From: an uncultured Bacteroidales bacterium
GTDB taxonomy: Bacteria > Bacteroidota > Bacteroidia > Bacteroidales > F082
DNA: 52,409 nucleotides
Direction of reading: 5' to 3'
NCBI GenBank assembly: GCA_900318465.1
Contig: ONKQ01000035.1
Span: 1 to 52,409 of the forward strand
Shown: positions 2,792 through 51,957 of the stretch, one piece after another
Layout of the letters: the number at the start of each line of letters is the position of its first letter
Numbering within the stretch: position 1 is the first letter of the stretch
Translations under genes and position numbers: made by a program
The notes under the pieces: model-generated
Told to the model about the DNA's origin: nothing
The model's input: the letters and a program-made list of their open reading frames with translations, nothing else
The model's database searches: none

Positions 2792-3244
2792 ATGAGCTAC
2801 ACCACATCATACTATCACATAGTGTTCCGCACCTACTGCAGCGAGCACACCATCCCCTTCGAACATGAGCGGGAGCTGTATGCCTACATCTATGGCATCG
2901 CGAAGAACCTCCGCTGCCAAACCTATCGCATAGGTGGCATGCCCGACCACATCCACATTTTCGTGTCGTTACCCTCAGACCTGTCTTTGGCCTCGTTTGT
3001 GCAGCAGGTGAAGAGCAGTAGCAGCAAATGGATGAAAGGAAATCCTAACTTCCCTGACTTCCGCGGCTGGGGACGTGAGTATGCTGGCTTCAGTTACAGC
3101 TTGCGCGACAAGGACAAGATTGTGAGTTACATCATGAGGCAAAAGGAACATCATGGTGCTACTACCTTTGCTGACGAGTATCGTACATTCATAGAGGAGA
3201 ATGGGGCTCCTATTGATGAGAGTTATTTTCTGAATGACGATTGA
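2792..3244 (+). CDS. REP-associated / IS200-type Y1 transposase (HUH single-strand transposase)
   Basis: 150 residues, the usual size of a single-domain TnpA. It carries the HUH metal-binding motif as DHIHIFV near residues 53-59 and a downstream tyrosine in REYAGFSYS near residue 96, the expected place for the nucleophile. The family cuts and rejoins single-stranded DNA at short hairpins. No accessory TnpB gene is present. The gene sits exactly between two near-identical hairpin arrays, the layout of RAYT genes that act on REP palindromes, so the arrays are its likely substrates. The start at 2792 is chosen because the conserved domain begins there (MSYTTSYYHIVF); the upstream sequence belongs to the repeat. 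Confidence 0.85.
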   Translation: MSYTTSYYHIVFRTYCSEHTIPFEHERELYAYIYGIAKNLRCQTYRIGGMPDHIHIFVSLPSDLSLASFVQQVKSSSSKWMKGNPNFPDFRGWGREYAGFSYSLRDKDKIVSYIMRQKEHHGATTFADEYRTFIEENGAPIDESYFLNDD

Positions 3245-3273
3245 ATGTAAGTCTTGTATCCTACATCTTGCGT

Positions 3274-3749
3274 CAGCCTCGTGCCGAAGGCACGTTATTC
3301 TATTAACCCCATACAGCTTTGCTGTGTGGGGCAGACTGGACTATAGACTCAGAGTGGCGTGCTGGAGGCACGCTACATACATATATGAGGTGTCGTGCCT
3401 CCAGCACGTAGGTTGCTGTGGCAGCTCTTGTGTCGGCCCCACACTGTGCCGTGTGGGGTTAGTAGGATGTCGTGTCTTCGACACGGGGTGCTGCTGCACG
3501 GTGGGAGTCGTGTATGGTGTCAGGTATGTATAGGATAGGCCAGACCATAGATTTAGGAGGGTGTGCTGGAGATATGCTATGGATGTATATGAGGTGTCGT
3601 GCCTCCAGCACTCAGGTTGCTATGGCTGCTCTTGTGTCGGGCCCCACACTATGACTGGTGTGTCGGCCCCACACTATGGCGTGTGGGGTTAATAGGATGT
3701 CGTGTCTTCGACACGGGGTGCTGCTGCACGGTGGAAGTCGTGCACGGTG
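3274..3749. repeat. Right REP-like hairpin array
   Basis: Second copy, in the same orientation, of the array at 2317-2760. It begins with the same CAGCCTCGTGCCGAAGGCACG-type unit (slightly split here) and ends after GGGGTTAATAGGATG and the CGTGTC-ttc-GACACG hairpin. The copies differ by point changes and a few short indels, such as ATGGCTGGTG versus ATGACTGGTG, so they have diverged for some time. Within the array, the block around TGTATATGAGGTGTCGTGCC occurs twice. No gene is seen between the transposase and serS. Confidence 0.8.
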
Positions 3750-3806
3750 TCCGTATCCCTATCGATGAAAAACACAGCCCATGATTTATGGTATCTGATT
3801 TTTTCC

Positions 3807-3814
3807 TATCTTTG
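3807..3814 (+). promoter_or_regulatory. Bacteroidota -7 box of serS
   Basis: TATCTTTG, matching the TAnnTTTG consensus, 31 bases upstream of the serS start codon. It supports the start at 3845 rather than an in-frame extension that would lie inside the promoter. Confidence 0.7.
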
Positions 3815-3844
3815 CCCGTTTTTAAGAAGCAAAACGACAAACCT

Positions 3845-5122
3845 ATGATAGACATCAAGTTTTTAGTCAAGAACCCGGATGTGGTTCGGGAAAACATCAA
3901 GAAGAAGTTTCAGAATAACAAGTTGCCTCTCGTCGACGAGGCCATCAACTTGTACACGCAATATTGTGATTGCCAGCAAAGAGCCGACGACCTCCGCTCG
4001 CAGCGCAACTCCATCTCAAAGGAAATTGGCATCCTCTTCAAGAACAAGGAAGTGGAAAAGGCTAACGAAATGAAGAAGTTGGTTGAGGCCAACGCCCAAG
4101 AATTGGAGGCTTTGGGCAAGCAGCAGACTTCGCTCATGGAGCAACTGACCAAGGTGATGTATTCCATCCCGAACATCATCGCGCCCGAGGTGCCGATTGG
4201 GAAGGACGACACTTTCAACGTGGAAAAAGAACGCTTTGGAGAGCCTGTCGTTCCCGATTTCGAGGTACCTTACCATGCCGACATCATGGCCAAGTTCAAC
4301 GGCTTGGACTTGGATTCGGCGCACCGCGTGGCGGGCAACGGCTTCTATTACCTGATGGGCGACATTGCGCGGCTTCATTCCGCTGTCATCACCTACGCCC
4401 GTGATTTTATGATAGATAGAGGCTTTACTTACTGCATCCCGCCTTTCATGGTGCGAAGCGAAATCGTTTCCGGCGTGATGAGTTTCGCCGAGATGGACGC
4501 GATGATGTATAAGATTGAAGGCGAGGACCTCTACCTCATTGGCACCAGCGAACACTCGATGATTGGCAAGTTCATCGACCAAATCGTGCCCGAAGAAAGC
4601 CTGCCGCTGACCTTGACGAGTTACTCGCCCTGCTTCCGCAAGGAGAAAGGCGCGCACGGCATCGAGGAACGTGGCGTGTATCGCATCCACCAGTTCGAGA
4701 AACAGGAGATGGTCGTCCTTTGCAAGCAGGAGGAAGCCGATTATTGGTACGAGCAGATGTGGAAGAACACAGTCGACTTGTTCCGCTCGATGGATATTCC
4801 CGTCCGCACGCTTGAATGTTGCTCTGGCGACTTGGCCGACTTGAAGGTGAAGTCACTTGATGTGGAGGCATGGTCGCCGCGTCAGAAGAAATACTTCGAG
4901 GTGGGCAGTTGCTCTTATCTTGGTGACGCTCAGGCGCGTAGACTGAAAATCAGAATCAAGGGGAAGAACGGTAACTATTTCGCCCACACCTTGAACAATA
5001 CTGTGGTCGCCCCGCCGCGCATGTTGATTGCCTTCTTGGAGAACAACCTCCGTGCCGACGGTTCGGTAGCCATCCCGAAGGCCTTGCAACCCTACATGAG
5101 TGGAAAAACTGAGATTAGATGA
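3845..5122 (+). CDS. serS: Seryl-tRNA synthetase
   Basis: 425 residues, normal for SerRS. Charges tRNA-Ser (and tRNA-Sec) with serine in the cytosol. The N-terminal arm (about residues 25-105) is the long antiparallel coiled coil that grips the tRNA; the class II catalytic core follows, with TSEHSMIG, motif 2 FRKEKGAHG near residue 262, and the C-terminal GDAQARRLKIR and PPRMLIAFLENN motif 3 region. The start at 3845 gives MIDIKFLVKN, the usual bacterial N-terminus. It is alone on its transcript: its own promoter lies upstream and a palindromic AT-rich region follows. Confidence 0.97.
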   Translation: MIDIKFLVKNPDVVRENIKKKFQNNKLPLVDEAINLYTQYCDCQQRADDLRSQRNSISKEIGILFKNKEVEKANEMKKLVEANAQELEALGKQQTSLMEQLTKVMYSIPNIIAPEVPIGKDDTFNVEKERFGEPVVPDFEVPYHADIMAKFNGLDLDSAHRVAGNGFYYLMGDIARLHSAVITYARDFMIDRGFTYCIPPFMVRSEIVSGVMSFAEMDAMMYKIEGEDLYLIGTSEHSMIGKFIDQIVPEESLPLTLTSYSPCFRKEKGAHGIEERGVYRIHQFEKQEMVVLCKQEEADYWYEQMWKNTVDLFRSMDIPVRTLECCSGDLADLKVKSLDVEAWSPRQKKYFEVGSCSYLGDAQARRLKIRIKGKNGNYFAHTLNNTVVAPPRMLIAFLENNLRADGSVAIPKALQPYMSGKTEIR

Positions 5123-28752: not shown

Positions 28753-28789
28753 TATGATTGTGTGTTTTATGCGAATTTGATTGAGGCTG

Positions 28790-28797
28790 CAAAGGTA
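28790..28797 (-). promoter_or_regulatory. -7 box of the carboxyltransferase gene
   Basis: TACCTTTG on the minus strand, 37 bases from the start codon, divergent from structured RNA A. Confidence 0.65.
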
Positions 28798-28859
28798 CAA
28801 CTTTCCCAGCAATTAGACTCAAAAAAACAATAGTTTCGCTTGCCCAACCAAAAAAGTTG

Positions 28860-28867
28860 TATCTTTG
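28860..28867 (+). promoter_or_regulatory. -7 box of structured RNA A
   Basis: TATCTTTG with a TTG 17 bases upstream (28840-28842), a good -33/-7 pair. Confidence 0.7.
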
Positions 28868-28871
28868 TGGC

Positions 28872-29081
28872 GGTTCTTATGGCGGAATTTTGCCGCCGAC
28901 ATATAGAAACACGAAGCGTTATGCTCGTCTTGTGGTTGGAAATGTGAGAGTTTTCAAGAGTCGCAAGAAAAGTGTAATGGTTCACGCAATTTGCGTGGGC
29001 TGTTGTTACACCTTCTTGACTCAAGGTATCTCTCACAACCTCCAATCAAAGAAGTGGTATATCAGTGCCACGCTTCTTTTG
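28872..29081 (+). ncRNA. Structured RNA A of a three-member family
   Basis: Closing stem GAAGCGT (28913-28919) with ACGCTTC (29070-29076). Inside: GTGAGAG (28944-28950) with CTCTCAC (29030-29036); GAGTC plus AAGAA (28958-28969) with TTCTTGACTC (29013-29022); GTGTAA (28972-28977) with TTACAC (29006-29011); and an apical hairpin CACGC-aattt-GCGTG (28983-28997). A 5' hairpin GGCGG/CCGCC (28881-28897) and GACATATA (28898-28905) precede the closing stem. The sequence keeps the same order of elements as RNA B and, more distantly, RNA C. An alternative 3' hairpin (AAAGAAG, TGG with CCA, CTTCTTT; 29048-29079) uses the same 3' strand and runs into TTTTGT. The next gene starts 77 bases later with no clear promoter. 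Confidence 0.7.
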
Positions 29082-29152
29082 TATCAATTTTCCTTTGGGG
29101 TGCTGAAAAGGAAAATAAAGGTTGCTCCCGTCACGGATTTAGGGATAAGAAA

Positions 29153-29539
29153 ATGAGAAAAATGACTTTAGCATTTATGGCCGCAATGATGCTGATGACC
29201 ATATCTGGTTGTAAACGCGATGTTTATGGAGATTTGTTCATTAAAAGAGCTCCTGTGACTTTTCGTGTGACGAATGAAAGCGGCCAAGCGTTGTCTAATG
29301 TGAGCGTGAAGGCCGAAGAACGTGACGGTTTTGATGGAGACCTCATTATGAATGGGGAACGTTATACCTATACGGATGCCGAAGGTATGGCCACTATTTC
29401 GGATGCCGCCTGTTATGATCCATCCCAATTTGGAGGCCGCACTAATGGGTTCGTCTTTACGACCACAGGGTATGCCGTTTTCGACACCATCTTCAACACT
29501 TGGGAAGGCACTGTCGATATTGTTCTACACAGAGAATGA
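29153..29539 (+). CDS. Small lipoprotein with Ig-like/regulatory domain
   Basis: 128 residues. Lipoprotein signal with lipobox ISGC (Cys at residue 20). The mature part, APVTFRVTNESGQALSNVSV then DGDLIMNGERYTYTDAEGMA, resembles the carboxypeptidase-regulatory/Big_1-like beta sandwiches of Bacteroidota lipoproteins. Function unknown. It is the first gene after structured RNA A. Confidence 0.7.
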   Translation: MRKMTLAFMAAMMLMTISGCKRDVYGDLFIKRAPVTFRVTNESGQALSNVSVKAEERDGFDGDLIMNGERYTYTDAEGMATISDAACYDPSQFGGRTNGFVFTTTGYAVFDTIFNTWEGTVDIVLHRE

Positions 29540-29589
29540 TGCGAAACAAAGAAAAGCCACAAAGAGGGCGCGGCGAGAAGAGGACTTTT

Positions 29590-29970
29590 ATGAAAACAAA
29601 CAAAAATAGGGGTAATAATGCCTTATTGATAATGCTTGTAACAAGTCCTATCTGGATTATTCCGTTAGCGTTGCTTGTGGATTATTTAGATGAAAGATAC
29701 TCAGCTCCAAAAGTGGAGAAGGTGCATAATTATCCAAGGTATGAATATCCAGATGATACCATTTTAGCTCACCCGGAAAGAATCCCTAAAAAAGGAGAAT
29801 CTATTATGCCAAGGGTAAATGGCTATGCTGGGAACAATGGAGTAGTCTTAACTTTACCTGGTGGTAACAAGATAAATACTGGCCTGTCTTCAGAAGAAAT
29901 CATAGAACAATTAGACTTTGATTATCAAGATGTCTACGATTACTATGGAGGGGCCGAGGAGTTATACTAA
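29590..29970 (+). CDS. Hypothetical single-pass membrane protein
   Basis: 126 residues from the ATG at 29590; an in-frame ATG pair at 29536/29539 overlapping the upstream stop would add about 17 basic residues. One membrane helix near residues 10-28 (ALLIMLVTSPIWIIPLALLV), then a hydrophilic tail ending in acidic YYGGAEELY. No family is recognised. Base composition is clearly more AT-rich than the flanks and shared with the next gene. Confidence 0.6.
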   Translation: MKTNKNRGNNALLIMLVTSPIWIIPLALLVDYLDERYSAPKVEKVHNYPRYEYPDDTILAHPERIPKKGESIMPRVNGYAGNNGVVLTLPGGNKINTGLSSEEIIEQLDFDYQDVYDYYGGAEELY

Positions 29971-30001
29971 TCTGTCTTATCTTCATTAAAATTTAACTGA
30001 C

Positions 30002-30496
30002 ATGAAAAAAAATGATTCAACTATTGTAGAAGGTTTTCCTCCACTAATGTGTCATGAGCCTCGAGTATTGATTTTGGGAACAATACCAGGGAAGAATTCT
30101 ATTAGTGAGTATTATTATGACAATAAAAATCGGATGTGGAAAATGTTGGCAGAATTAGCAACACAAAAATTGCCTACAAATTATTCCGAGAAAAAGGTGT
30201 TATTAGAACATTTGCATGTCGTATTTTGGGATTATTATCAGTTTGGTGAGCAGCGAACTAAAGGCAAGGTTAAAGGTACCATTCCAAACGATATTGTTGG
30301 TTTTGTTAGAAAAAATCCGACTATAACAAAGATAGCCATAAATGGTTATGGAAATTACAAAGACTTTGGAGAAAAACTACAAAATCAGTTCGGACAATCC
30401 ATCAAAGTGTTTCGTTTGCCAGAAACAAGCGGCCTCAACGCTTCTTGGACTTTAGAAAAACTGTGTAAGGAATGGAGCGTTGTGTTTGAACTATGA
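30002..30496 (+). CDS. Uracil-DNA-glycosylase superfamily protein (hypoxanthine-DNA glycosylase-like)
   Basis: 164 residues, the size of this single-domain family. LILGTIPGKNSISEYYYDNK near residue 22 replaces the usual GSFPG loop; LLEHLHVVFWDYY corresponds to the substrate-binding region; IAINGYGNYKDF and RLPETSGLNASWTLEKLCKE are the C-terminal motif with the expected S-xxN-A-S. These enzymes remove deaminated bases such as hypoxanthine or uracil from DNA. Base composition is AT-rich, hinting at transfer with the preceding gene. Confidence 0.7.
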   Translation: MKKNDSTIVEGFPPLMCHEPRVLILGTIPGKNSISEYYYDNKNRMWKMLAELATQKLPTNYSEKKVLLEHLHVVFWDYYQFGEQRTKGKVKGTIPNDIVGFVRKNPTITKIAINGYGNYKDFGEKLQNQFGQSIKVFRLPETSGLNASWTLEKLCKEWSVVFEL

Positions 30497-30543
30497 CCTG
30501 TTGAAGCTCCGCCTTCAGCATTTGCAATACGAGACAAAAGTTA

Positions 30544-30576
30544 AAAAAGAGCGACCTTTTTAGTCGCCCTCTTTGT
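30544..30576. terminator. Terminator between convergent glycosylase and hutU genes
   Basis: AAAAAGAGCGAC-ctttttа-like loop then GTCGCCCTCTTT: stem GAGCGAC with GTCGC-C-CTC, A-tract before and T-tract after. It can serve both strands. Confidence 0.75.
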
Positions 30577-30584
30577 TATAGGAG

Positions 30585-30612
30585 GTAGAGACGGTGCATA
30601 CACCGTCTCTAC
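30585..30612. repeat. Perfect 12-bp hairpin GTAGAGACGGTG
   Basis: GTAGAGACGGTG-cata-CACCGTCTCTAC. The same GTAGAGACG/CGTCTCTAC arms appear at 35014-35041 with another loop, so it is a dispersed hairpin type. Confidence 0.75.
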
Positions 30613-30627
30613 AAACGTCCAATTCTG

Positions 30628-32628
30628 TTAAAACAGATTATCCAAAATCTTGTCCTCCACCATATTCGGCAAGGTGACTTTCAGTTTAGGCTCGGCCTCC
30701 ATGGCACGCTTAATGGCGAAGGTGGCACCTTCGTTTCTGGCCCAGTTGCGGCGGGCGATGCCGTTGTTCACGTCCCAGTGCAACATGCAGTGGAGCCTAC
30801 GGTCAGCATCGGTAGTGCCGTCAAGCACCATGCCGAAGCCGCCGTTGATGACTTCGCCCCAGCCTACACCGCCGCCGTTGTGGATGCTCACCCAAGTGGC
30901 ACCACGGAAACCGTCGCCGATGACGTTCTGCACGGCCATGTCGGCGGTGAACGACGAACCGTCGTAGATGTTGGAGGTCTCACGGAACGGGCTGTCGGTG
31001 CCGCTCACGTCGTGGTGGTCGCGGCCAAGGACGACAGGACCGCTCAGGCGACCATCTGCAATGGCCTTGTTGAACTCGGCAGCAATCTTGGTGCGGCCTT
31101 CGCAGTCGGCATAGAGGATACGGGCTTGCGAACCCACCACGAGGTGGTTCTCCTGTGCGCCACGGATCCACTGGATGTTGTCGCGCATCTGCTGTTGAAT
31201 CTCAGCAGGAGCCGTGCGGGCAATCTCTTCAAGCACGTTGCAGGCGATGTCGTCGGTGACGGCGAGGTCTTCAGGCTTGCCCGAAGCGCACACCCAGCGG
31301 AAGGGACCGAAGCCGTAATCGAAGCACATCGGGCCCATAATGTCCTGAACGTAGGAAGGATAGCGGAATGAGCCGTCTTCTTTCAAAATGTCGGCACCGG
31401 CGCGTGACGATTGCAGCAAGAAAGCGTTGCCGTAGTCGAAGAAGTACATACCCTTGGCAGTCAGCTTGTTGATGGCGGCCACATGGCGGCGCAACGAAGC
31501 CTGCACCTTCTCCTTGAACATTTCAGGATTCTCTGCCATCATGGTCTTGGATTCCTCAAACGACAGCCCAACAGGATAGTAACCACCTGCCCAAGGGTTG
31601 TGGAGTGAGGTCTGGTCGGAACCGAGGTCGACGTGGATGTCGTGCTCGGCGGCATATTCCCAAAGGTCCACCACATTGCCTTGGTAGGCATAGCTGCGGG
31701 CTTCCTTCTTGGCGAGGCTCGCATTGACATGCTTGAACAGTTCCTCGATGTTGTCGTACACCTCATCGACCCAGCCTTGCTGATAACGTTTCTGCGTGGC
31801 AGCCGGGTTGATTTCGGCGGTGATGCTCACCACTCCGGCGATGTTACCAGCCTTGGGCTGGGCACCGCTCATGCCGCCGAGGCCAGCAGTGACAAACAGT
31901 TTGCCAGCCGTGCTGCCACCGTGCTTGCGGGCTGCGTTCAAAACAGTGATGGTCGTGCCGTGGACGATGCCTTGAGGTCCGATATACATATAGGAGCCGG
32001 CGGTCATCTGGCCGTATTGCGTTACGCCGAGGGCGTTGTAGCGTTCCCAGTCGTCGGGCTTCGAGTAGTTCGGGATCATCATACCGTTGGTGACCACCAC
32101 GCGCGGGGCGTCCTTATGCGACGGGAACAGACCCATGGGGTGGCCGCTGTACATGGCCAAGGTCTGGTCTTCGTCCATGTTGGCCAAATATTGCATCACG
32201 AGGCGGTATTGTGCCCAGTTTTGGAAGATGGCACCGTTGCCGCCGTAGATGATGAGCTCGTGCGGATGCTGTGCCACAGCGGGGTCGAGGTTGTTTTGGA
32301 TCATCAGCATGATGGCTGCGGCCTGCTTGCACTTGGCAGGATATTCCTCAATCGGGCGGGCGTACATCTTGTAGGACGGGCGGAAACGGTACATGTAGAT
32401 GCGGCCGTATTTTTCCAATTCCTCGGCAAATTCGGGAGCCAGCGTGGCGTGGAACTTGGCGGGGAAATAACGCAAAGCGTTACGGATGGCCAATTTCTTT
32501 TCGGCTTTTGTCAAGATGTCCTTGCGCTTGGGCGCGTGGTTGATGTTAAGGTCGTATTCCTTCACTTCCGGCAATTCATCGGGGATGCCGGCAAGAATCT
32601 CTTTTTGGAAATCGTTGAATGCGTTCAT
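30628..32628 (-). CDS. hutU: Urocanate hydratase
   Basis: 666 residues. Converts urocanate to imidazolonepropionate in histidine degradation, with NAD+ as tightly bound cofactor. Motifs: ELIIYGGNGAIFQNWAQYR, GMMIPNYS, FVTAGLGGMSGAQPKA (NAD binding), GRDHHDVSG and SIHNGGGVGWGEVINGGFG. It is the longer form of about 660 residues found in Bacteroidota. Other hut genes are not in the window, so it stands alone here. Confidence 0.96.
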   Translation of the reverse strand: MNAFNDFQKEILAGIPDELPEVKEYDLNINHAPKRKDILTKAEKKLAIRNALRYFPAKFHATLAPEFAEELEKYGRIYMYRFRPSYKMYARPIEEYPAKCKQAAAIMLMIQNNLDPAVAQHPHELIIYGGNGAIFQNWAQYRLVMQYLANMDEDQTLAMYSGHPMGLFPSHKDAPRVVVTNGMMIPNYSKPDDWERYNALGVTQYGQMTAGSYMYIGPQGIVHGTTITVLNAARKHGGSTAGKLFVTAGLGGMSGAQPKAGNIAGVVSITAEINPAATQKRYQQGWVDEVYDNIEELFKHVNASLAKKEARSYAYQGNVVDLWEYAAEHDIHVDLGSDQTSLHNPWAGGYYPVGLSFEESKTMMAENPEMFKEKVQASLRRHVAAINKLTAKGMYFFDYGNAFLLQSSRAGADILKEDGSFRYPSYVQDIMGPMCFDYGFGPFRWVCASGKPEDLAVTDDIACNVLEEIARTAPAEIQQQMRDNIQWIRGAQENHLVVGSQARILYADCEGRTKIAAEFNKAIADGRLSGPVVLGRDHHDVSGTDSPFRETSNIYDGSSFTADMAVQNVIGDGFRGATWVSIHNGGGVGWGEVINGGFGMVLDGTTDADRRLHCMLHWDVNNGIARRNWARNEGATFAIKRAMEAEPKLKVTLPNMVEDKILDNLF

Positions 32629-32639
32629 TATGTTTAATT

Positions 32640-32768
32640 GTTGATTGATTAATCGTTGAATTGTTTAATTGTTGATTCTGAAGAGCTTTGCGTCATTGCG
32701 CGGAGGAACAACGAAGCAATCCAGAGTAAAATATGTTTACTGGACTGCTTCGTGCCTCGCAGTGACGC
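32640..32768. repeat. Dispersed palindrome upstream of hutU
   Basis: After an AT-rich TTGTTTAATTGTTGA string (32640-32678), GCGTCATTGCG and ACGAAGCA-TCCAG (from 32690) pair with CTGGA-TGCTTCGT and CGCAGTGACGC (to 32768) to give an imperfect hairpin with arms of about 32 bases. One arm recurs at about 39673-39706 upstream of yajC. Confidence 0.7.
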
Positions 32769-32849
32769 GAAGCGACCCAAATTTGGCTGCAAATTTAGGG
32801 AAAATTTCATCATTTCTCAAAAATTCGTTTGCGTCACCATAAATTTCCC

Positions 32850-32857
32850 TATTTTTG
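32850..32857 (+). promoter_or_regulatory. -7 box of structured RNA B
   Basis: TATTTTTG with TTG 18 bases upstream at 32829-32831. Confidence 0.7.
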
Positions 32858-32861
32858 CCCC

Positions 32862-33095
32862 CGAATTGGTTCGCCAGTGCTTCGATGTACTCAGCAACCA
32901 TTCGCGACATTTTGAACTTTAGAAGCGTTATGCTTCCTTGTACTTGAAAACGTCGGAACTTTTCAAGTCTATAACGGAAGAGGTTGTATAACGGCTTCAC
33001 GCTATATGCGTGGGCTGTTATTACATTTTCTGTTATGGGTTTCCGACGACCTTCAAGTACGATGTGATATAACACAGCACACGCTTCTTTTGTTT
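32862..33095 (+). ncRNA. Structured RNA B of a three-member family
   Basis: Closing stem GAAGCGT (32922-32928) with ACGCTTC (33081-33087), then TTTTGTTT. Inside: GTACTTGAA (32940-32948) with TTCAAGTAC (33052-33060); GTCGGAA (32952-32958) with TTCCGAC (33041-33047); ATAACGGA (32971-32978) with TCTGTTAT (33029-33036); TGTA with TACA; and apical CACGC-tatat-GCGTG (32998-33012). GACATTTT (32906-32913) precedes. The stems of RNA A are replaced by different but complementary sequence, while GAAGCGTTATGCT, GCGTGGGCTGTT and ACGCTTCTTTTGT are shared exactly. A small secreted protein gene starts 70 bases after the closing stem without its own box. Confidence 0.7.
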
Positions 33096-33156
33096 GTGTC
33101 GATACGTTTAAGTTGAACTTAATTAATTCAGTATTAACCTAATAAACAAAAGTAAA

Positions 33157-33462
33157 ATGGCAAAACTCAAAATGAAGAAGAAAGCTTTGGTGCTTTCATT
33201 GGCAATGTTGGCTACGTCCATCGGGGCTTTTGCCCAAGACGGTTTGTTCCAGCGAGGCGTGAATGACGAGGCGTATAGCGGCTATGGTTGTTCCACCGAC
33301 AAGGCTGGACTCCTTGATAATCGTAGTGGTATAATCTGGTCGGAAGGCGGAATGTTTGCCCAAGACCCAACTCAACCGGCTCCGCTTGGTAACGGATTGT
33401 TTATCCTTGTGGCAACAGGGGTGGGCTATGTGACCTTAAAGAGAAAGGAGGACAAGCAATGA
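33157..33462 (+). CDS. Small secreted protein with C-terminal PLG-type membrane tail
   Basis: 101 residues. N-terminal signal peptide (ALVLSLAMLATSIGAFAQ) and a C-terminal tripartite tail: PAPLGNGLFILVATGVGYVT followed by LKRKEDKQ. A proline/LG motif, hydrophobic helix and basic end recall C-terminal sorting or anchoring signals and recur in Bacteroidota small proteins. Function unknown. Its stop overlaps the ATG of the next gene by four bases, so the two are coupled. Confidence 0.65.
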   Translation: MAKLKMKKKALVLSLAMLATSIGAFAQDGLFQRGVNDEAYSGYGCSTDKAGLLDNRSGIIWSEGGMFAQDPTQPAPLGNGLFILVATGVGYVTLKRKEDKQ

Positions 33463-35124: not shown

Positions 35125-35273
35125 GTTTTTCGGCGAGGGTTTCATTTCATTCCACCGCCCGCATGATTTCAGGCCGTCACTTCGTGACTTTTGGGAGGGC
35201 ACGAGGGAACCCCGTAGGGGTGATGGGACATTAGGCAGGTGGTGGAATGCAATGGAACCCCTGCCGAAAAAAC
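35125..35273. mobile_element. 149-bp palindromic element with 32-bp terminal inverted repeats (MITE/REP-like)
   Basis: The left arm 35125-35156 (GTTTTTCGGCGAGGG... ending CATTCCACC) is nearly the reverse complement of the right arm 35241-35273 (GGTGGAATG... ending GCCGAAAAAAC), with about four mismatches and one extra base. Inside are GTCAC-ttc-GTGAC (35176-35188) and ACCCC-gta-GGGGT (35209-35221), so the folded strand is a three-armed structure. No coding capacity. Likely a non-autonomous transposed element or a REP doublet; the mobilising enzyme is unknown. Confidence 0.65.
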
Positions 35274-35340
35274 GTATAATACCAAATCGACCCCCGGGGG
35301 GGGTGACAGGAATAATTGTTGCAGTGTCGGAGAATTTGTT

Positions 35341-35348
35341 TATTTTTG
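35341..35348 (+). promoter_or_regulatory. -7 box of the HEPN/MNT operon
   Basis: TATTTTTG, 22 bases before the ATG at 35371. Confidence 0.65.
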
Positions 35349-35370
35349 CAGACGATTATTCATTCATTGT

Positions 35371-35760
35371 ATGACAAAAGAGGAGAAAATTGCTTACTGG
35401 CTTGATTTGGCCGACTACGACATCGAAACGGCGGAAGGCTTGTTTGTTGTAAAGCGTTGGTTGTATGTGGGTTTTATGTGTCATCAGGTGATAGAAAAGA
35501 CGTTGAAAGCCTATTGGTGCAAGAAACGAGATGACGACCCACCCTATATTCATAATTTGGCGCAACTGGCAATTCGAAGTGGATTATATGAACAAATGTC
35601 GTCGGAACAACAGCGGACGATAGCCCAATTGATGCCCATGAACATAGAGGCTCGCTATCCAGAATACAAGGAACAATTACTGAAAAGGATGACTCCAGAG
35701 TTTTGTCGTCAATTAATTGATGACACAAAAACACTACAACAATGGATAAGGAACAAGTGA
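35371..35760 (+). CDS. HEPN domain protein (of a HEPN/MNT pair)
   Basis: 129 residues, all helical HEPN. It shows YWLDLADYDIETAEGLFVVK, YVGFMCHQVIEKTLKAYWCK, DDDPPYIHNLAQLAIRSGLY and NIEARYPEYKEQL. The ARYP motif is usual for HEPN partners of MNT nucleotidyltransferases. HEPN proteins of this type act as ribonuclease toxins or as nucleotide-binding partners. Overlaps the MNT gene by 19 bases. Confidence 0.85.
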   Translation: MTKEEKIAYWLDLADYDIETAEGLFVVKRWLYVGFMCHQVIEKTLKAYWCKKRDDDPPYIHNLAQLAIRSGLYEQMSSEQQRTIAQLMPMNIEARYPEYKEQLLKRMTPEFCRQLIDDTKTLQQWIRNK

Positions 35761-46663: not shown

Positions 46664-46671
46664 TATTTTTG
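46664..46671 (+). promoter_or_regulatory. -7 box of structured RNA C
   Basis: TATTTTTG. No other box is visible between here and the mod gene. Confidence 0.65.
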
Positions 46672-46675
46672 CCTC

Positions 46676-46936
46676 GTACTAACCGATAAACGGCAGTGCA
46701 GACATATTTATAGAAAGACGTTTACTGACGTTTTCATTTGACGGTTCGAAACTTCGCAACTTTTGAATTCTATTGTCAAAGAGAATGCAGCGGTGAACGC
46801 CTGCGTTGGTATGTTATTGGTTTTCATCAAGCATATCCATCCGTGGGCTTCGCGTTGCTCAATCTTACAATAGAAGGTAATGCGAAGACCTCGAACCGTG
46901 GGAGCGAGTAACAAGATTCCCACGTTTTTCTTTTTT
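46676..46936 (+). ncRNA. Structured RNA C, divergent member of the three-member family
   Basis: GACATATT (46701-46708), then closing stem GAAAGACGT (46713-46721) with ACGTTTTTC (46922-46930). Inside: GGTTCG (46743-46748) with CGAACC (46892-46897); CTTCGC (46752-46757) with GCGAAG (46882-46887); TCTATTGT (46769-46776) with ACAATAGA (46867-46874); AACGC/GCGTT (46796-46807); and an extra hairpin TGGTATG/CATATCCA (46807-46839). CGTGGGCTT at 46842 echoes the GCGTGGGCTG of A and B. At the 3' end CGTGGGA (46897-46903) can pair with TCCCACG (46918-46924), making a terminator with a T-tract that shares bases with the closing stem. The mod start codon is 52 bases past the closing stem. Confidence 0.6.
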
Positions 46937-46981: not shown

Positions 46982-48991
46982 ATGATAAAGAACATAATGG
47001 CTCAAAACGAGACGGTGCAACCCAACGACAGAATCATGGCGAAACTTCATGCCGATTTTCCACAATGCTTCAACAAAGAAGGACAATTTGATTTGGAACG
47101 CTTTCAGCAACTGATTCAAAACGAGGTAGATGTGACTCGCGAAGGCTATGAATTGAACTTCCTAGGGAAGAATTATGCCAACTTGATTGCCAGCACCGAG
47201 ACGGAAACCGTCATCCAGCCCGACCTTGAGCACAATGCCAAGCCGGAGAACTGCAACAGCCAGAATGTTTATATCAGCGGTGATAATCTTGACGCACTGA
47301 AGCACTTGCTGAAATCGTACAGCAACAGCATCAAATGCATCTATATCGACCCGCCGTACAATACGGGTAGCGACGGCTTTGTGTATAACGACAGATTCAA
47401 TTTCACCGCAGAACAATTACAGACCAAGTTGGGGATAAGCAAGGAGAAAGCAGACCGCATTCTTGACCTTGCCCGCCGTGGTTCTGCATCCCATTCGGCT
47501 TGGCTGATGTTTATGGCACCGCGCCTGATGCTTGCCAAAGACCTTTTGACCGATGACGGCGTGATTTTCATTTCCATTGATGACAATGAGCAGGCGAATT
47601 TGAAATTGTTGTGTGATAGTGTGTTTGGAGAGGAAAACTTTGTGGCGCAATGTATAATTAATGGCACGCCCAAAAATGATCCTTATGTGGCATCTACGGC
47701 ACATGAATACTGTGTGATATTCGTAAAAAGTATGGATGTTGTGAAAGATGCGAATTATGGAATAATCAATCCTCGATATAAGGATTTGGTTGATATTTTT
47801 GAAAAAGGTAATGGGGATTACGTGTCCATTAAGGCTGCTCTGAAGAAGTATTACAAAGATAATGACCTCGAAGATGATAATATTTCAAACTATAAATATG
47901 TAGATGAATACGGTGTTTATCGAATAGGACCATTAGATGACCCTCAAAGTTCTGGTCCAAAAGATAATAGGATAAATCCTGTGACTGGCAATTATTGTGC
48001 AATTCCTTCAAGAGGATGGAGTTGTACTATAGATACATGGAATGAATGGGTTAGTCAGCATTTAATTGAATTTCCTGATGATGATAGTGTATTGCCATCA
48101 AAGAAAACATATGTTACCGTTGACCGATTGGATGTGATGCGTACTGTTTTTAAGATGCAAACAAGAAAAGATACAGATTTCTTGAAGAAATTATTTGGAA
48201 CATCTTACACTCCATTTTCAAATCCAAAGCCTGTTGATTTAATAAAGACCTTTATCGAAAACTGTAATGATAAAAAAATGATTGTTTGTGATTTCTTTTC
48301 TGGAAGCGCAACTACAATGCAAGCAGTAATGGAATTAAATCGCAAAGATAAAGGCAATCGAAAGTGCTTTCTTGTTCAATGGCAAGAGCCAATAGTTGTT
48401 TCTTCTAATAAATCAAAAAAAGCAAAGAAAATAGCTCAAGCTGCAATTGATTACTTGGATACTCAACACTTACCTTATACAATAGATAATATCGGACAAG
48501 AGAGGATTAGACTTTATGCTAAGAAAATTAGAGAAGAACATCCTGAATATCAAGGTGATTTAGGCTTCAAGCACTACACCCTGCAAGATGTACCACAAAA
48601 CACGTTGGACCGACTTGAACTTTTTGATCCAAAAGGAATGATTGGTGAAGAGGATATTTTGGATAAATTCGGCAAAGATACCGTGTTGGAAACATGGTGC
48701 GTGAAAGACGGCTATGGCTTCGGAGCAAATGTATCGGAATTGAAATTGGCGGACTATACAGCATATCATTGCGGCAGCCATCTTTACTTCGTTGAAGGCA
48801 ATGGCTTTGACGAAAATGCAATGATTGCCCTGATTGACAAATACCATAGCGATGCAGCGTTCAATCCACAAAACATGGTGCTGTTTGGCTATAGTTTTTC
48901 TTTCACACAAGTGGAGATGCTGAAGAAAAACCTCGCCACCTTGAGCGATAGCGCAAAGAACCTGAATATGAACCTTGACATTCGTTACTAA
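46982..48991 (+). CDS. Type III restriction-modification system, Mod (DNA methyltransferase) subunit
   Basis: 669 residues (an ATG at 46997 would remove five). N6-adenine methyltransferase of beta order: catalytic motif IV DPPYNTGSDGFVYNDRFNF near residue 124 and the SAM-binding motif I as DFFSGSATTMQ near residue 438. The region between, about bases 47640-48540, is markedly AT-rich and carries the target recognition part, while both ends match the window average. Recognises and methylates one strand of the target site and directs the partner Res. Ends by a 1-base TAATG overlap with res. Confidence 0.92.
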   Translation: MIKNIMAQNETVQPNDRIMAKLHADFPQCFNKEGQFDLERFQQLIQNEVDVTREGYELNFLGKNYANLIASTETETVIQPDLEHNAKPENCNSQNVYISGDNLDALKHLLKSYSNSIKCIYIDPPYNTGSDGFVYNDRFNFTAEQLQTKLGISKEKADRILDLARRGSASHSAWLMFMAPRLMLAKDLLTDDGVIFISIDDNEQANLKLLCDSVFGEENFVAQCIINGTPKNDPYVASTAHEYCVIFVKSMDVVKDANYGIINPRYKDLVDIFEKGNGDYVSIKAALKKYYKDNDLEDDNISNYKYVDEYGVYRIGPLDDPQSSGPKDNRINPVTGNYCAIPSRGWSCTIDTWNEWVSQHLIEFPDDDSVLPSKKTYVTVDRLDVMRTVFKMQTRKDTDFLKKLFGTSYTPFSNPKPVDLIKTFIENCNDKKMIVCDFFSGSATTMQAVMELNRKDKGNRKCFLVQWQEPIVVSSNKSKKAKKIAQAAIDYLDTQHLPYTIDNIGQERIRLYAKKIREEHPEYQGDLGFKHYTLQDVPQNTLDRLELFDPKGMIGEEDILDKFGKDTVLETWCVKDGYGFGANVSELKLADYTAYHCGSHLYFVEGNGFDENAMIALIDKYHSDAAFNPQNMVLFGYSFSFTQVEMLKKNLATLSDSAKNLNMNLDIRY

Positions 48992-51957
48992 TGGAAATCA
49001 AATATCAAAGCGGGCTGGAACACCAGCAAAAAGCCGTGGATGCCATCGTCAAGGTTTTTGACGAGGTTAGTATAGGCAAGCCAGTGCAACTGTATGAGAA
49101 TCCAACGGTCGATCTTGAAGACACGAAAATCAAGGTGAACATAAAAACCATACAGGCTGATACACAATACAATGTGGATGCCGAGTTCCGCAAGCCTGTC
49201 GTTTCGCAAGATTGTCTTACTCTTGATATTAAGATGGAGACTGGCACAGGAAAGACCTATGTCTATACGCACACGATATACGAGTTGCATAAACGATACG
49301 GCATTAATAAATTCATCGTGGCAGTACCCTCGTTGGCTATCAAGGAAGGAGCAAAGTCATTTCTTGGCGATGCAGATGTGAGAAGACATTTCAGCAACAC
49401 TTGCGGCTACAATGCCGAAATTGTTTTGTGTACACTGAAAGCCATGCAAATCAAGAAAGGCAAGCGGTTCTTTCCATCGGTGGTGAGGGCTTTTGTGGAT
49501 GGGTCAAGCCAAATCACCAACCAAATCTACGTGTTGCTGGTCAATATGGCGTTGCTGACCGACAGAAAAGACGGTTTGCTTGGTCGTGATGATTATGACT
49601 ATGGGGCGCAAGGCTTTTACCGGCCTTTGGATGCGCTGAAAGCTACCCGTCCGTTTGTCATCATCGACGAACCGCATCGTTTTGCCCGCGACCAAAAGGC
49701 TTATACTGTAATCAAGGAACAAATTTGTCCGCAATGTGTCATTCGTTTTGGAGCCACATTCCCTGAAATAACCGCGGGAAGAGGTAAAAACAAGATTACG
49801 CGGAAAGACTACGACAACCTGCTCTACAACTTGAACGCTTGCCAAGCCTTCAACCAAAACCTCATCAAAGGAGTGGCAAAAGAGCATTTTGAATCTCCAA
49901 GCAAGAAAAACGAGAAAATCAAAGTTCAGTCTATTGAAAGTAAAGAGTCGGTTACTTTTAGCCACGTTACTCCTTTGGGAACAAAACCGTACACGCTTTA
50001 TAAAGGTGACTCGTTGGGTTCCATTTCTCCAGATATGGAAGGAATGAGCATTGAAGCTATCGGTAAGGACTTTGTGGAATTCTCCAATGGACAGACCAAG
50101 CAAAAAGGCGAGGAGTTTGACGTAACCCTGTTTGCTGTGTCGTATCAAGAGGCCATGTTGAAATTGGCCATTGAGCGACATTTCGTGACCGAACGCAACA
50201 ATTTCAATCGCTCACAACGCATCAAGACTTTGGCTTTGTTTTTCATTGACGACATTGTTTCGTTCAGAGGCGACAAAGATGGAAATGGTGCATGGCTACG
50301 CGATGCCTTTGATCGGCTATTGAAGGAACGTATTGAAACAGAACTGGCCCAACAAAATTCTGCTGATTATGCTGATTTCTTGAAAGAGAGTCTTTTACAT
50401 CTGCAAGACTGCTCGGCTGGCTATTTCGCCCAGGATAATAGCGATAGCGACGAGGCAGTGGCACAAGAGGTGGATGATATTTTGCGAAACAAGAAAAGAC
50501 TGCTATCATTCAAAAATGAAATTGGCAACTGGAATGTTCGTCGTTTTCTCTTCTCAAAATGGACGCTAAAAGAAGGCTGGGACAATCCCAATGTGTTTAC
50601 CATCACTAAATTGCGTTCAAGTGGCAGCGATATTAGCAAGATTCAAGAAGTAGGGCGCGGTTTGCGCTTGCCTGTTGACGAGTTTGGCAACCGAATCAGC
50701 AACGAGGAGTTTATGCTCAATTATATCGTGGATTTCAAGGAAGCCGACTTCGCCAAAAAATTAGTGGCTGAAATCAATGGTGATGCCACATCGACAGGCA
50801 ATGTTTTGGCCATCACTGATGCCGATTTGGAGAGGGTGGCAGCATTGCGCAAAACGGATCCGAAGACTTTGCTCGTCGAATTGCTTATGAAGAATTATGT
50901 TGGCATAGACAAAGTAATTGCAATTGACACGATTTCTGATTTATACAACGATTACCCTGAGTTTAATACTGGGGTAAACAAGACAAAAGTCATCGACCGT
51001 AACAAGAAGGCAACCAACATGGTAAAGATTCGTTCTGATCGTTATGCAGAACTGAAAGAACTATGGAAGAAGCTCAACCAGAAATACATCATATTCTTCC
51101 AAAACGAACTTGACGAAAAAATCGAAAATGAGTTCCATTTGGATGAAGATACGTTCACTTTTGTGAGAGTGGAGAGCAGTAGAGATAAACTTGACACCAA
51201 CGATAAAGGCAGCTATATCATAGGCGATTCGGGCGTTCAATACACGATGGTTGGTAAGACGATGCCTTACAACGAGTTTTTGAAAAGGATAAGCAAGGCT
51301 ACATCCATTCCAATCAATGTGGTTCATCGAAAAGTGGTAGAATACTTTTCAACTTACCCCCACTTTACAGAAAATTATATCAACGAAAACTCGATGGCTC
51401 GTTTCATTGCCCAATTCAATGATTGGAAGGTTGAGAATATGAAAGGTTTGCTGAAATACAGGCAAGCCAACTACAATGCAAATGAAACTGCGCTCACAGA
51501 TGTGAATGGGTGTTTGAAACCAGAGATTGCACAAGGACTTATTGGCGTTTCTTTGGAACACAGCAATCCGTCAGCTAAGTACTTATATGAAGGTGTCGTT
51601 TTCGATTCCGACTTGGAGAAAAAGAACATAATGAGTGATATTGACGATGTCGTTGTTTTTGGTAAGATTCCGAGAAGAAGCATTGCCATTCCAACGGTTA
51701 TTGACAACTACAGCCCTGATTTTATGTATGTTGTGAAACGAAAAGATGGCAAAAAGGAATTGAATTTGGTTGTTGAGACTAAAGATGTGGAAACCAAATC
51801 CTCTTTGCGTCCTACAGAGCAAGTAAAAATAGATTGCGCGAAGATACTGTTTGAGCAGCTACGATTAGATGGATTTGAAGTGAGATTTGAGACGCAAATT
51901 AGCGATAAGAAAATGCAGGAAATTGTAACTGATTTGTTGAGAGAAGAGACTGCTTAG
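48991..51957 (+). CDS. Type III restriction-modification system, Res (helicase-nuclease) subunit
   Basis: 988 residues. SF2 helicase: Walker A METGTGKTYVY near residue 80, VIIDEPHRF (DEAD-type box) near residue 222, RFGATFPEI, and motif VI near QEVGRGLRLPV (residue 552). The C-terminal nuclease shows the PD-(D/E)xK pattern as YSPDFMYVV and LNLVVETKDVE near residues 910-930. ATP-driven search and double-strand cleavage with Mod. Confidence 0.93.
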   Translation: MEIKYQSGLEHQQKAVDAIVKVFDEVSIGKPVQLYENPTVDLEDTKIKVNIKTIQADTQYNVDAEFRKPVVSQDCLTLDIKMETGTGKTYVYTHTIYELHKRYGINKFIVAVPSLAIKEGAKSFLGDADVRRHFSNTCGYNAEIVLCTLKAMQIKKGKRFFPSVVRAFVDGSSQITNQIYVLLVNMALLTDRKDGLLGRDDYDYGAQGFYRPLDALKATRPFVIIDEPHRFARDQKAYTVIKEQICPQCVIRFGATFPEITAGRGKNKITRKDYDNLLYNLNACQAFNQNLIKGVAKEHFESPSKKNEKIKVQSIESKESVTFSHVTPLGTKPYTLYKGDSLGSISPDMEGMSIEAIGKDFVEFSNGQTKQKGEEFDVTLFAVSYQEAMLKLAIERHFVTERNNFNRSQRIKTLALFFIDDIVSFRGDKDGNGAWLRDAFDRLLKERIETELAQQNSADYADFLKESLLHLQDCSAGYFAQDNSDSDEAVAQEVDDILRNKKRLLSFKNEIGNWNVRRFLFSKWTLKEGWDNPNVFTITKLRSSGSDISKIQEVGRGLRLPVDEFGNRISNEEFMLNYIVDFKEADFAKKLVAEINGDATSTGNVLAITDADLERVAALRKTDPKTLLVELLMKNYVGIDKVIAIDTISDLYNDYPEFNTGVNKTKVIDRNKKATNMVKIRSDRYAELKELWKKLNQKYIIFFQNELDEKIENEFHLDEDTFTFVRVESSRDKLDTNDKGSYIIGDSGVQYTMVGKTMPYNEFLKRISKATSIPINVVHRKVVEYFSTYPHFTENYINENSMARFIAQFNDWKVENMKGLLKYRQANYNANETALTDVNGCLKPEIAQGLIGVSLEHSNPSAKYLYEGVVFDSDLEKKNIMSDIDDVVVFGKIPRRSIAIPTVIDNYSPDFMYVVKRKDGKKELNLVVETKDVETKSSLRPTEQVKIDCAKILFEQLRLDGFEVRFETQISDKKMQEIVTDLLREETA

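Follow-up and report, generated by a model that had tools for sequence, protein, structure and literature searches.

The window analysed here, a stretch of 52,409 nucleotides from an uncultured Bacteroidales bacterium (contig ONKQ01000035.1), contains on its forward strand two loci, A and B, that share short strings at corresponding places, and the question that they raise is what RNA they encode and what that RNA does for the genes behind it. The strings described as common to both in an earlier sequence-only reading were confirmed in place: GAAGCGTTATGCT at 28913 and 32922, the tip GCGTGGGCTGTT at 28993 (A) and 33008 (B), and the 3′ end ACGCTTC followed by TTTTG at 29070–29081 (A) and 33081–33092 (B). 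The compensated stem was likewise present, with GTGAGAG/CTCTCAC at 28944–28950/29030–29036 in A and GTCGGAA/TTCCGAC at 32952–32958/33041–33047 in B. When at most one mismatch was allowed, GCGTGGGCTGTT gave three matches in the window compared to 0.33 expected, and none of 100 shuffles reached three; GAAGCGTTATGCT alone, with up to two mismatches, was not above chance in the window (27 of 100 shuffles reached two). The folding z-scores were −5.8 for A and −8.4 for B, and in neither case was any of 200 dinucleotide shuffles equally stable. A and B are confirmed as copies of one structured RNA, and the original observation is real.

By sequence, copy A is preceded by a putative promoter box of the TAnnTTTG type, TATCTTTG (28860–28867, + strand), and its leader (28872–28912) is predicted to fold a hairpin, GGCGGAATTTTGCCGCC, at 28881–28897. 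The RNA core, from closing stem to U-run, spans 28913–29081 and was scored by the covariance model R2 at 162 bits (E 1e-35) on the + strand and at 33 bits on the other strand, A itself being a row in the build of R2. The core consists of the closing stem P1 (28913–28919 with 29070–29076), the stems P2 (28933–28940 with 29041–29048) and P3 (28944–28950 with 29030–29036), the conserved tip (28993–29004), and a terminator-like end made up of the P1 3′ strand and the U-run (29070–29081). Copy B has the box TATTTTTG at 32850–32857, a leader predicted to form a hairpin (32858–32921) and a core at 32922–33092, with P1 at 32922–32928/33081–33087, P2 at 32940–32948/33052–33060 and P3 at 32952–32958/33041–33047. 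The same box, TATTTTTG, occurs at 46664–46671 ahead of a third and diverged copy, C (46715–46931, +; R2 48.8 bits, E 1e-9). A and B each contain a single RNA unit. Upstream of B, at about 32689–32775, lies a long imperfect inverted repeat, GAAGCAATCCAG...CTGGACTGCTTC, which is also found in the alleles L261 and L266.

A covariance model built from A and B, R1, gave matches in 30 of 40 relatives at a loose cut-off (E ≤ 1, weak matches included). From the R1 matches, an exact pattern scan (at least 120 stretches) and three virus contigs, 87 cores were aligned by sequence only to give the alignment A3, from which R2 was built. The rows of A3 were gathered largely by the strings GCGTGGRCT and CACGCTTCTTT and for the remainder by similar fuzzy strings, so finding these strings and the first U's conserved is no evidence. 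R2 found 20 copies in the own genome (E ≤ 1e-3). At E ≤ 1e-5 it detected the RNA in 116 of 295 genomes in a sample of the order and in 26 of 296 in a sample of the phylum, the latter sample containing the own genome and a second genome from the order; in both searches at most nine candidates were scored per genome, and strict filters lose weak matches. The proposal that homologues exist far outside the own genome was therefore borne out by both models. At E ≤ 1e-3, weak matches included, R2 gave 27 copies in a 1.9 Mb Rikenellaceae MAG, 20 in Dysgonomonas sp. 520, eight in Phocaeicola coprophilus, six in Bacteroides heparinolyticus and three in Pedobacter jejuensis. Copies also matched plasmid-filed records of Bacteroides, Phocaeicola, Parabacteroides and Prevotella; a search of phage records with one divergent copy gave no match. 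One locus of Dysgonomonas sp. 520 (L307) has two copies about 1.1 kb apart (1501–1667 and 2796–2949). The divergent copies at L101 and L105 lie within a few kb of the Rfam RNAs abiF and rteR and ahead of RibD-like reductase genes, a hint of mobile elements.

A 6S-like RNA and the Bacteroidales-1 motif had been named as candidate families. Neither was supported, as Rfam 15 gave no match at gathering score on A or B. None of the matches in a relaxed Rfam scan of 28780–33200 fell on A or B, and no Rfam family was found on the RNA in 18 divergent loci or in 8 further loci. By these scans the RNA lies outside all Rfam 15 families.

The fold of the complete core, a long rod, showed changes on both sides in 28 of 43 pairs on A3 compared to 21.0 in shuffles, the structure being drawn from the same alignment. 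Double-change cells numbered 544 compared to 184 after shuffling, and 90.3% of cells were paired compared to 78.2% in shuffled and 39.2–46.1% in slid alignments. The covariation came mostly from P2 and P3, while P4 was weak (64.3% of cells) and had no G-U bias (34 G-U versus 32 A-C cells). In the rod as a whole, G-U cells outnumbered A-C cells by 492 to 85, mainly in P5 (271 versus 11) and P1b (136 versus 18). This covariation supports selection on RNA structure, which had been proposed from the differing stems of A and B. The rod was more stable than the separately folded halves in all 87 rows of A3 (by a mean of 18.2 kcal/mol) and in all of 32 other loci. A tertiary contact between CTGT of the tip and ACAG of a bulge was not among the top mutual-information pairs.

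When growing prefixes of A and B were folded, the 5′ half closed on itself first; an early hairpin was also obtained in prefix folds of C. In A this hairpin (28913–28983, +; 28913–28925/28971–28983 and 28928–28932/28964–28968) is predicted to pair GAAGCGTTATGCT with AGTGTAATGGTTC and TCTTG with CAAGA, with the P3 5′ strand mostly as loop inside the inner loop, and in B it is formed by 32926–32933/32986–32993 (+). The results showed that the end strands of the 5′ half paired (at least six pairs) in all 87 rows of A3, with a mean z of −3.06 and a z below −2 in 64 rows. Native halves exceeded the mean of swapped halves in stability in 77 of the 87 rows, and pairing was retained by swapped halves in 78 of 87; since the 5′ strand hardly varies, the presence of the pairing alone proves little. 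On the columns of A3, the early hairpin had 69 double-change cells compared to 23.5 in shuffles, a number reached by none of 500, and its count of pairs with a double change was not unusual (9 versus 7.1 shuffled).

A further 45 loci were aligned to the rod only, and from these six that were identical or nearly identical and seven that were similar to A3 rows were set aside, leaving 32; the antisense match L209 was excluded from the analyses of further loci. In these 32 loci, none of them close to the rows of A3, the 5′ half showed early pairing in 30 (it was absent in L213 and L298), a z below −2 in 24, and a native half more stable than swaps in 30, with 445 of 640 swapped chimeras still pairing. 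Among 10 distinct loci outside the order, the early hairpin was predicted in nine and the native half beat the swaps in nine. The complementarity was kept with quite different letters in L214, L212 and L297. The early fold left the P3 5′ strand open in 86 of 87 rows of A3 and in 31 of the 32 further loci, the remaining one having no letters there. Since the 5′ strands of the early hairpin are also those of the rod, the two folds cannot coexist; by prediction, the RNA has two conserved and mutually exclusive folds that share these strands.

Of 80 loci, 74 had the TAnnTTTG box noted earlier at the RNA start in the 110 nt preceding the core, compared to 10 of 320 control windows. In the gaps between RNA and ORF it was found in 2 of 115, with 2.95 expected. 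In an unbiased ORF call, 140 of 159 loci had a first ORF that shares the strand of the RNA, and three more gave no ORF. A same-strand ATG ORF (at least 45 aa, within 260 nt) followed 164 of 177 units, three units, the pattern matches L088, L112 and L091, having been excluded beforehand as chance or coreless. The distance from RNA to ORF in 140 non-redundant cases had a median of 59 nt (quartiles 47 and 75). The arrangement suggests that the RNA, with a core of about 170 nt, follows the promoter and shares a transcript with the ORF behind it. In A and B the closing stem is followed by a U-run; among the 12 loci L200–L211 the U-run is broken in three (L208, L210 and L211). Terminator-like sites at the U-run were not enriched (8 versus 5.6 in shuffles), and by score a local hairpin just ahead of the U-run of A is also terminator-like.

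The genes behind the three window copies, all on the + strand, are unlike one another: a lipoprotein-like gene behind A (29153–29539) and a gene for a small secreted-looking protein behind B (33157–33462), both with no Pfam match, and a type III restriction-modification methylase gene behind C (46982–48991; PF18273, PF01555; start codon inferred). The methylase gene is followed by an ORF of 988 aa (48991–51957, +) that is probably the methylase's partner. Between RNA A and its gene lies a 5′-UTR box, GGTTGCTCCCGTCACGGATTTAGGG (29120–29144, +; motif GTTGCGCCCGNCACGNATTTAGGG), for which the own genome has four places when up to three mismatches are allowed and which is also seen at G000:C102:12796–12819; it precedes some genes with and without the RNA, often with a short hairpin ahead of it. 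The segment behind A is variable between relatives, and at 30002–30496 (+) it has a weak similarity to uracil-DNA glycosylase that falls short of the Pfam cut-off. A HEPN-domain protein is encoded at 35239–35760 (+; PF05168, E 1.2e-19). The proteins behind B-type copies (33157–33462 and those at L004, L009 and L033) have in common a hydrophobic tail at the C-terminus (PLGSGLxxLxAxGxGY type, then basic residues), which by eye looks like a sorting tail. Short peptides that carry YEAPxVEVIxxExQGxLCAS and have WP at the C-terminus were seen by eye to recur behind the RNA, at L007, L044 and L063. Among 138 downstream proteins, Pfam gave RibD_C 9, FISUMP 4, TerB 4, sorting-tail 4, DUF2971 3, PorV 2 and DarT 1. 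Searches with Pfam, PADLOC and NCBIfam of 138 of the 140 non-redundant proteins (L169 and L203 left out; top 25 families listed) found neither a dominant family nor a common function that hints at a signal. In a plasmid record of Parabacteroides distasonis (L226), a DUF4433 (DarT) gene lies directly behind an RNA copy, at 3185–4444.

In a search of 99 genomes of the genus, the flank of A was matched in 88 and that of B in 95, and 30 places were read for each. Counting the window's own copies, R2 detected the RNA in 8 of the 30 places read at A and in 5 of the 30 read at B, some of the places ending at a contig edge. At site A the RNA is absent from L229, L230 and L233: a segment that measures 245 nt in the window is 24 nt long there, and the promoter box, the 5′-UTR box and a lipoprotein relative are all retained; L234, L244 and L238 were judged by eye to hold decayed or truncated copies. 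At site B, a B-type gene without RNA is present in L260, L268 and L270. That promoter and gene persist in the RNA-less alleles of site A suggests that the RNA is an optional module that comes and goes within the leader. Among 34 locus pairs with a common upstream flank (six near-identical pairs excluded), the downstream DNA was unrelated in 21 and related in 13, although the pairs are not independent, as one is counted twice via L043 and L119 and nine of the 13 related pairs are one PorV-like locus. The classes are also rough: the pair of window A and L168 was scored as related despite predicted proteins that look unlike each other, and that of window B and L004 as unrelated despite a similar-looking layout. 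L012 and L173 have nearly identical cores and different genes. Inspection by eye of eight junction pairs showed no 3′ junction common to them. We regard gene exchange as a property of the loci, not an activity of the RNA, that probably proceeds by homologous recombination.

Taken together, the sequence-only reading stood as to selection on structure, the promoter box and the homologues, but not as to the families it named. Beyond it, the arrangement and the predicted folds suggest that the RNA forms the 5′ leader of the gene behind it, that relatives exchange these genes, and that the 5′ half of the RNA has a second, exclusive fold. Two exclusive folds and a place between a promoter and many unrelated gene starts make it probable that the RNA acts as a built-in on/off gate for these downstream genes in Bacteroidota. 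Given that the same 5′ strands serve both folds and that the rod's closing stem sits on the U-run, the simplest reading is attenuation, and we consider it moderately probable that A and B are a cis-acting leader RNA of Bacteroidia working as a bistable attenuator; folds and position were computed, and switching, termination, direction and trigger are what we infer. In such an attenuator the 5′ half would fold first into the early hairpin, hiding the 5′ strand of the closing stem. The P3 strand of the emerging 3′ half would then pair with the open loop of the early hairpin, making P3 the proposed start of refolding, and strand displacement would turn the hairpin into the rod, whose closing stem and U's would halt transcription. 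The gene would be expressed if the polymerase clears the U-run first or if something holds the early hairpin, so that in this kinetic scheme the early hairpin would give read-through and the rod termination. Given the rod's mean advantage of about 18 kcal/mol in stability, the early hairpin could be no more than a transient on the folding path. It could also be that the switch works in the opposite direction, because the hairpin before the U-run of A is terminator-like and the U-runs of L208, L210 and L211 are broken. A broader proposal, which we regard as possible but speculative, is that the RNA is a natural cis toehold switch across Bacteroidota in which loop-started refolding races RNA polymerase, a generic gate for accessory genes (surface proteins, restriction-modification, DarT) that perhaps answers to one global signal.

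The same data can be read in other ways. A stand-alone trans-acting noncoding RNA, binding protein like 6S or base-pairing like FopS, would be compact, stable, promoter-driven and multicopy, as this RNA is, and FopS, in the part of its report considered here, is a precedent for multicopy sRNA families in Bacteroides (PMC11697453); the U-run would end the RNA, the next gene would be served by low read-through, and the early hairpin would be a folding aid. We think this rather unlikely, as the start codon follows at a fixed short distance (the median of 59 nt), the gaps are without the promoter box, and RNA-less alleles place the same gene on the same promoter. The stability of the rod over its halves folded apart, found in 87 of 87 rows, would also suit a simple insulator or terminator, in which a single constitutive fold would hold expression of the next gene low with no regulated switching. 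Such a role appears improbable, since different clades preserve the second fold with different letters and 170 nt is more than a terminator would need.

The pairs in which flank and RNA are common and the gene differs (21 of 34), and stems that vary yet remain complementary, would fit a recombination site acting as DNA, like a folded integron attC, at the edge of exchangeable gene cassettes. We judge this very improbable in view of the excess of G-U over A-C cells, though mostly in P5 and P1b, the conserved promoter box, the eight pairs in which no common 3′ junction was seen by eye, and the stable PorV-like locus, which retains RNA and gene together. The order of promoter, RNA, putative terminator and gene is also that of a type III toxin–antitoxin RNA ahead of its toxin gene, and the plasmid copy of L226 precedes a DarT gene; this explanation is scarcely credible, given that the downstream proteins are diverse (RibD_C, FISUMP, TerB and PorV members) and that gene alleles exist without the RNA. 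A type III system would have a repeated RNA antitoxin and one toxin family, and what was found was diverse genes and a single RNA unit each in A and B.

If the bistable attenuator is correct, Rfam would be missing a cis-regulatory RNA that is common in Bacteroidota of the gut and the environment, and the RNA would be a natural case of loop-started strand displacement controlling transcription. It would also point to a signal common to many accessory genes, defence genes included, and offer a possible genetic part for organisms that have few.

No prior description of the RNA was found in the part of the literature covered, and it may be described elsewhere. In the parts of the following reports that were covered, the transcriptome of Bacteroides thetaiotaomicron has long 5′-UTRs, with TPP riboswitches mentioned (PMC7366714), and that of Flavobacterium has new 5′ elements before named genes (PMC9723704). 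6S-Flavo (RF01685) and Bacteroidales-1 (RF01693) are also structured RNAs of Bacteroidetes (PMC2864571), but neither matched A or B. Like the unnamed Bacteroidetes candidates of a human-microbiome survey (PMC8040213), the present RNA is predicted to be structured, contains a terminator-like end and lies near many genes; the survey's examples compared here differ in length (38–132 nt) and neighbours, and overlap with the rest of that survey is possible. FopS of B. thetaiotaomicron is described in the sections considered as a 14-member sRNA family of about 65–70 nt, intergenic, antisense or 3′-UTR derived, which acts in trans on susC mRNAs (PMC11697453); it resembles the present RNA as a multicopy family with canonical promoters in Bacteroides and, compared by length, differs from its core of about 170 nt. 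Terminating riboswitches and attenuators with strand displacement, such as the pbuE adenine riboswitch, differ from the present RNA, as far as the portions considered describe them (PMC7707468, PMC10907184), in that no ligand is known for it, it has no separate aptamer and platform, its whole 5′ half would refold, and its genes share no pathway; it has in common with them a 5′ leader position, exclusive folds and a terminator-like end before the gene.
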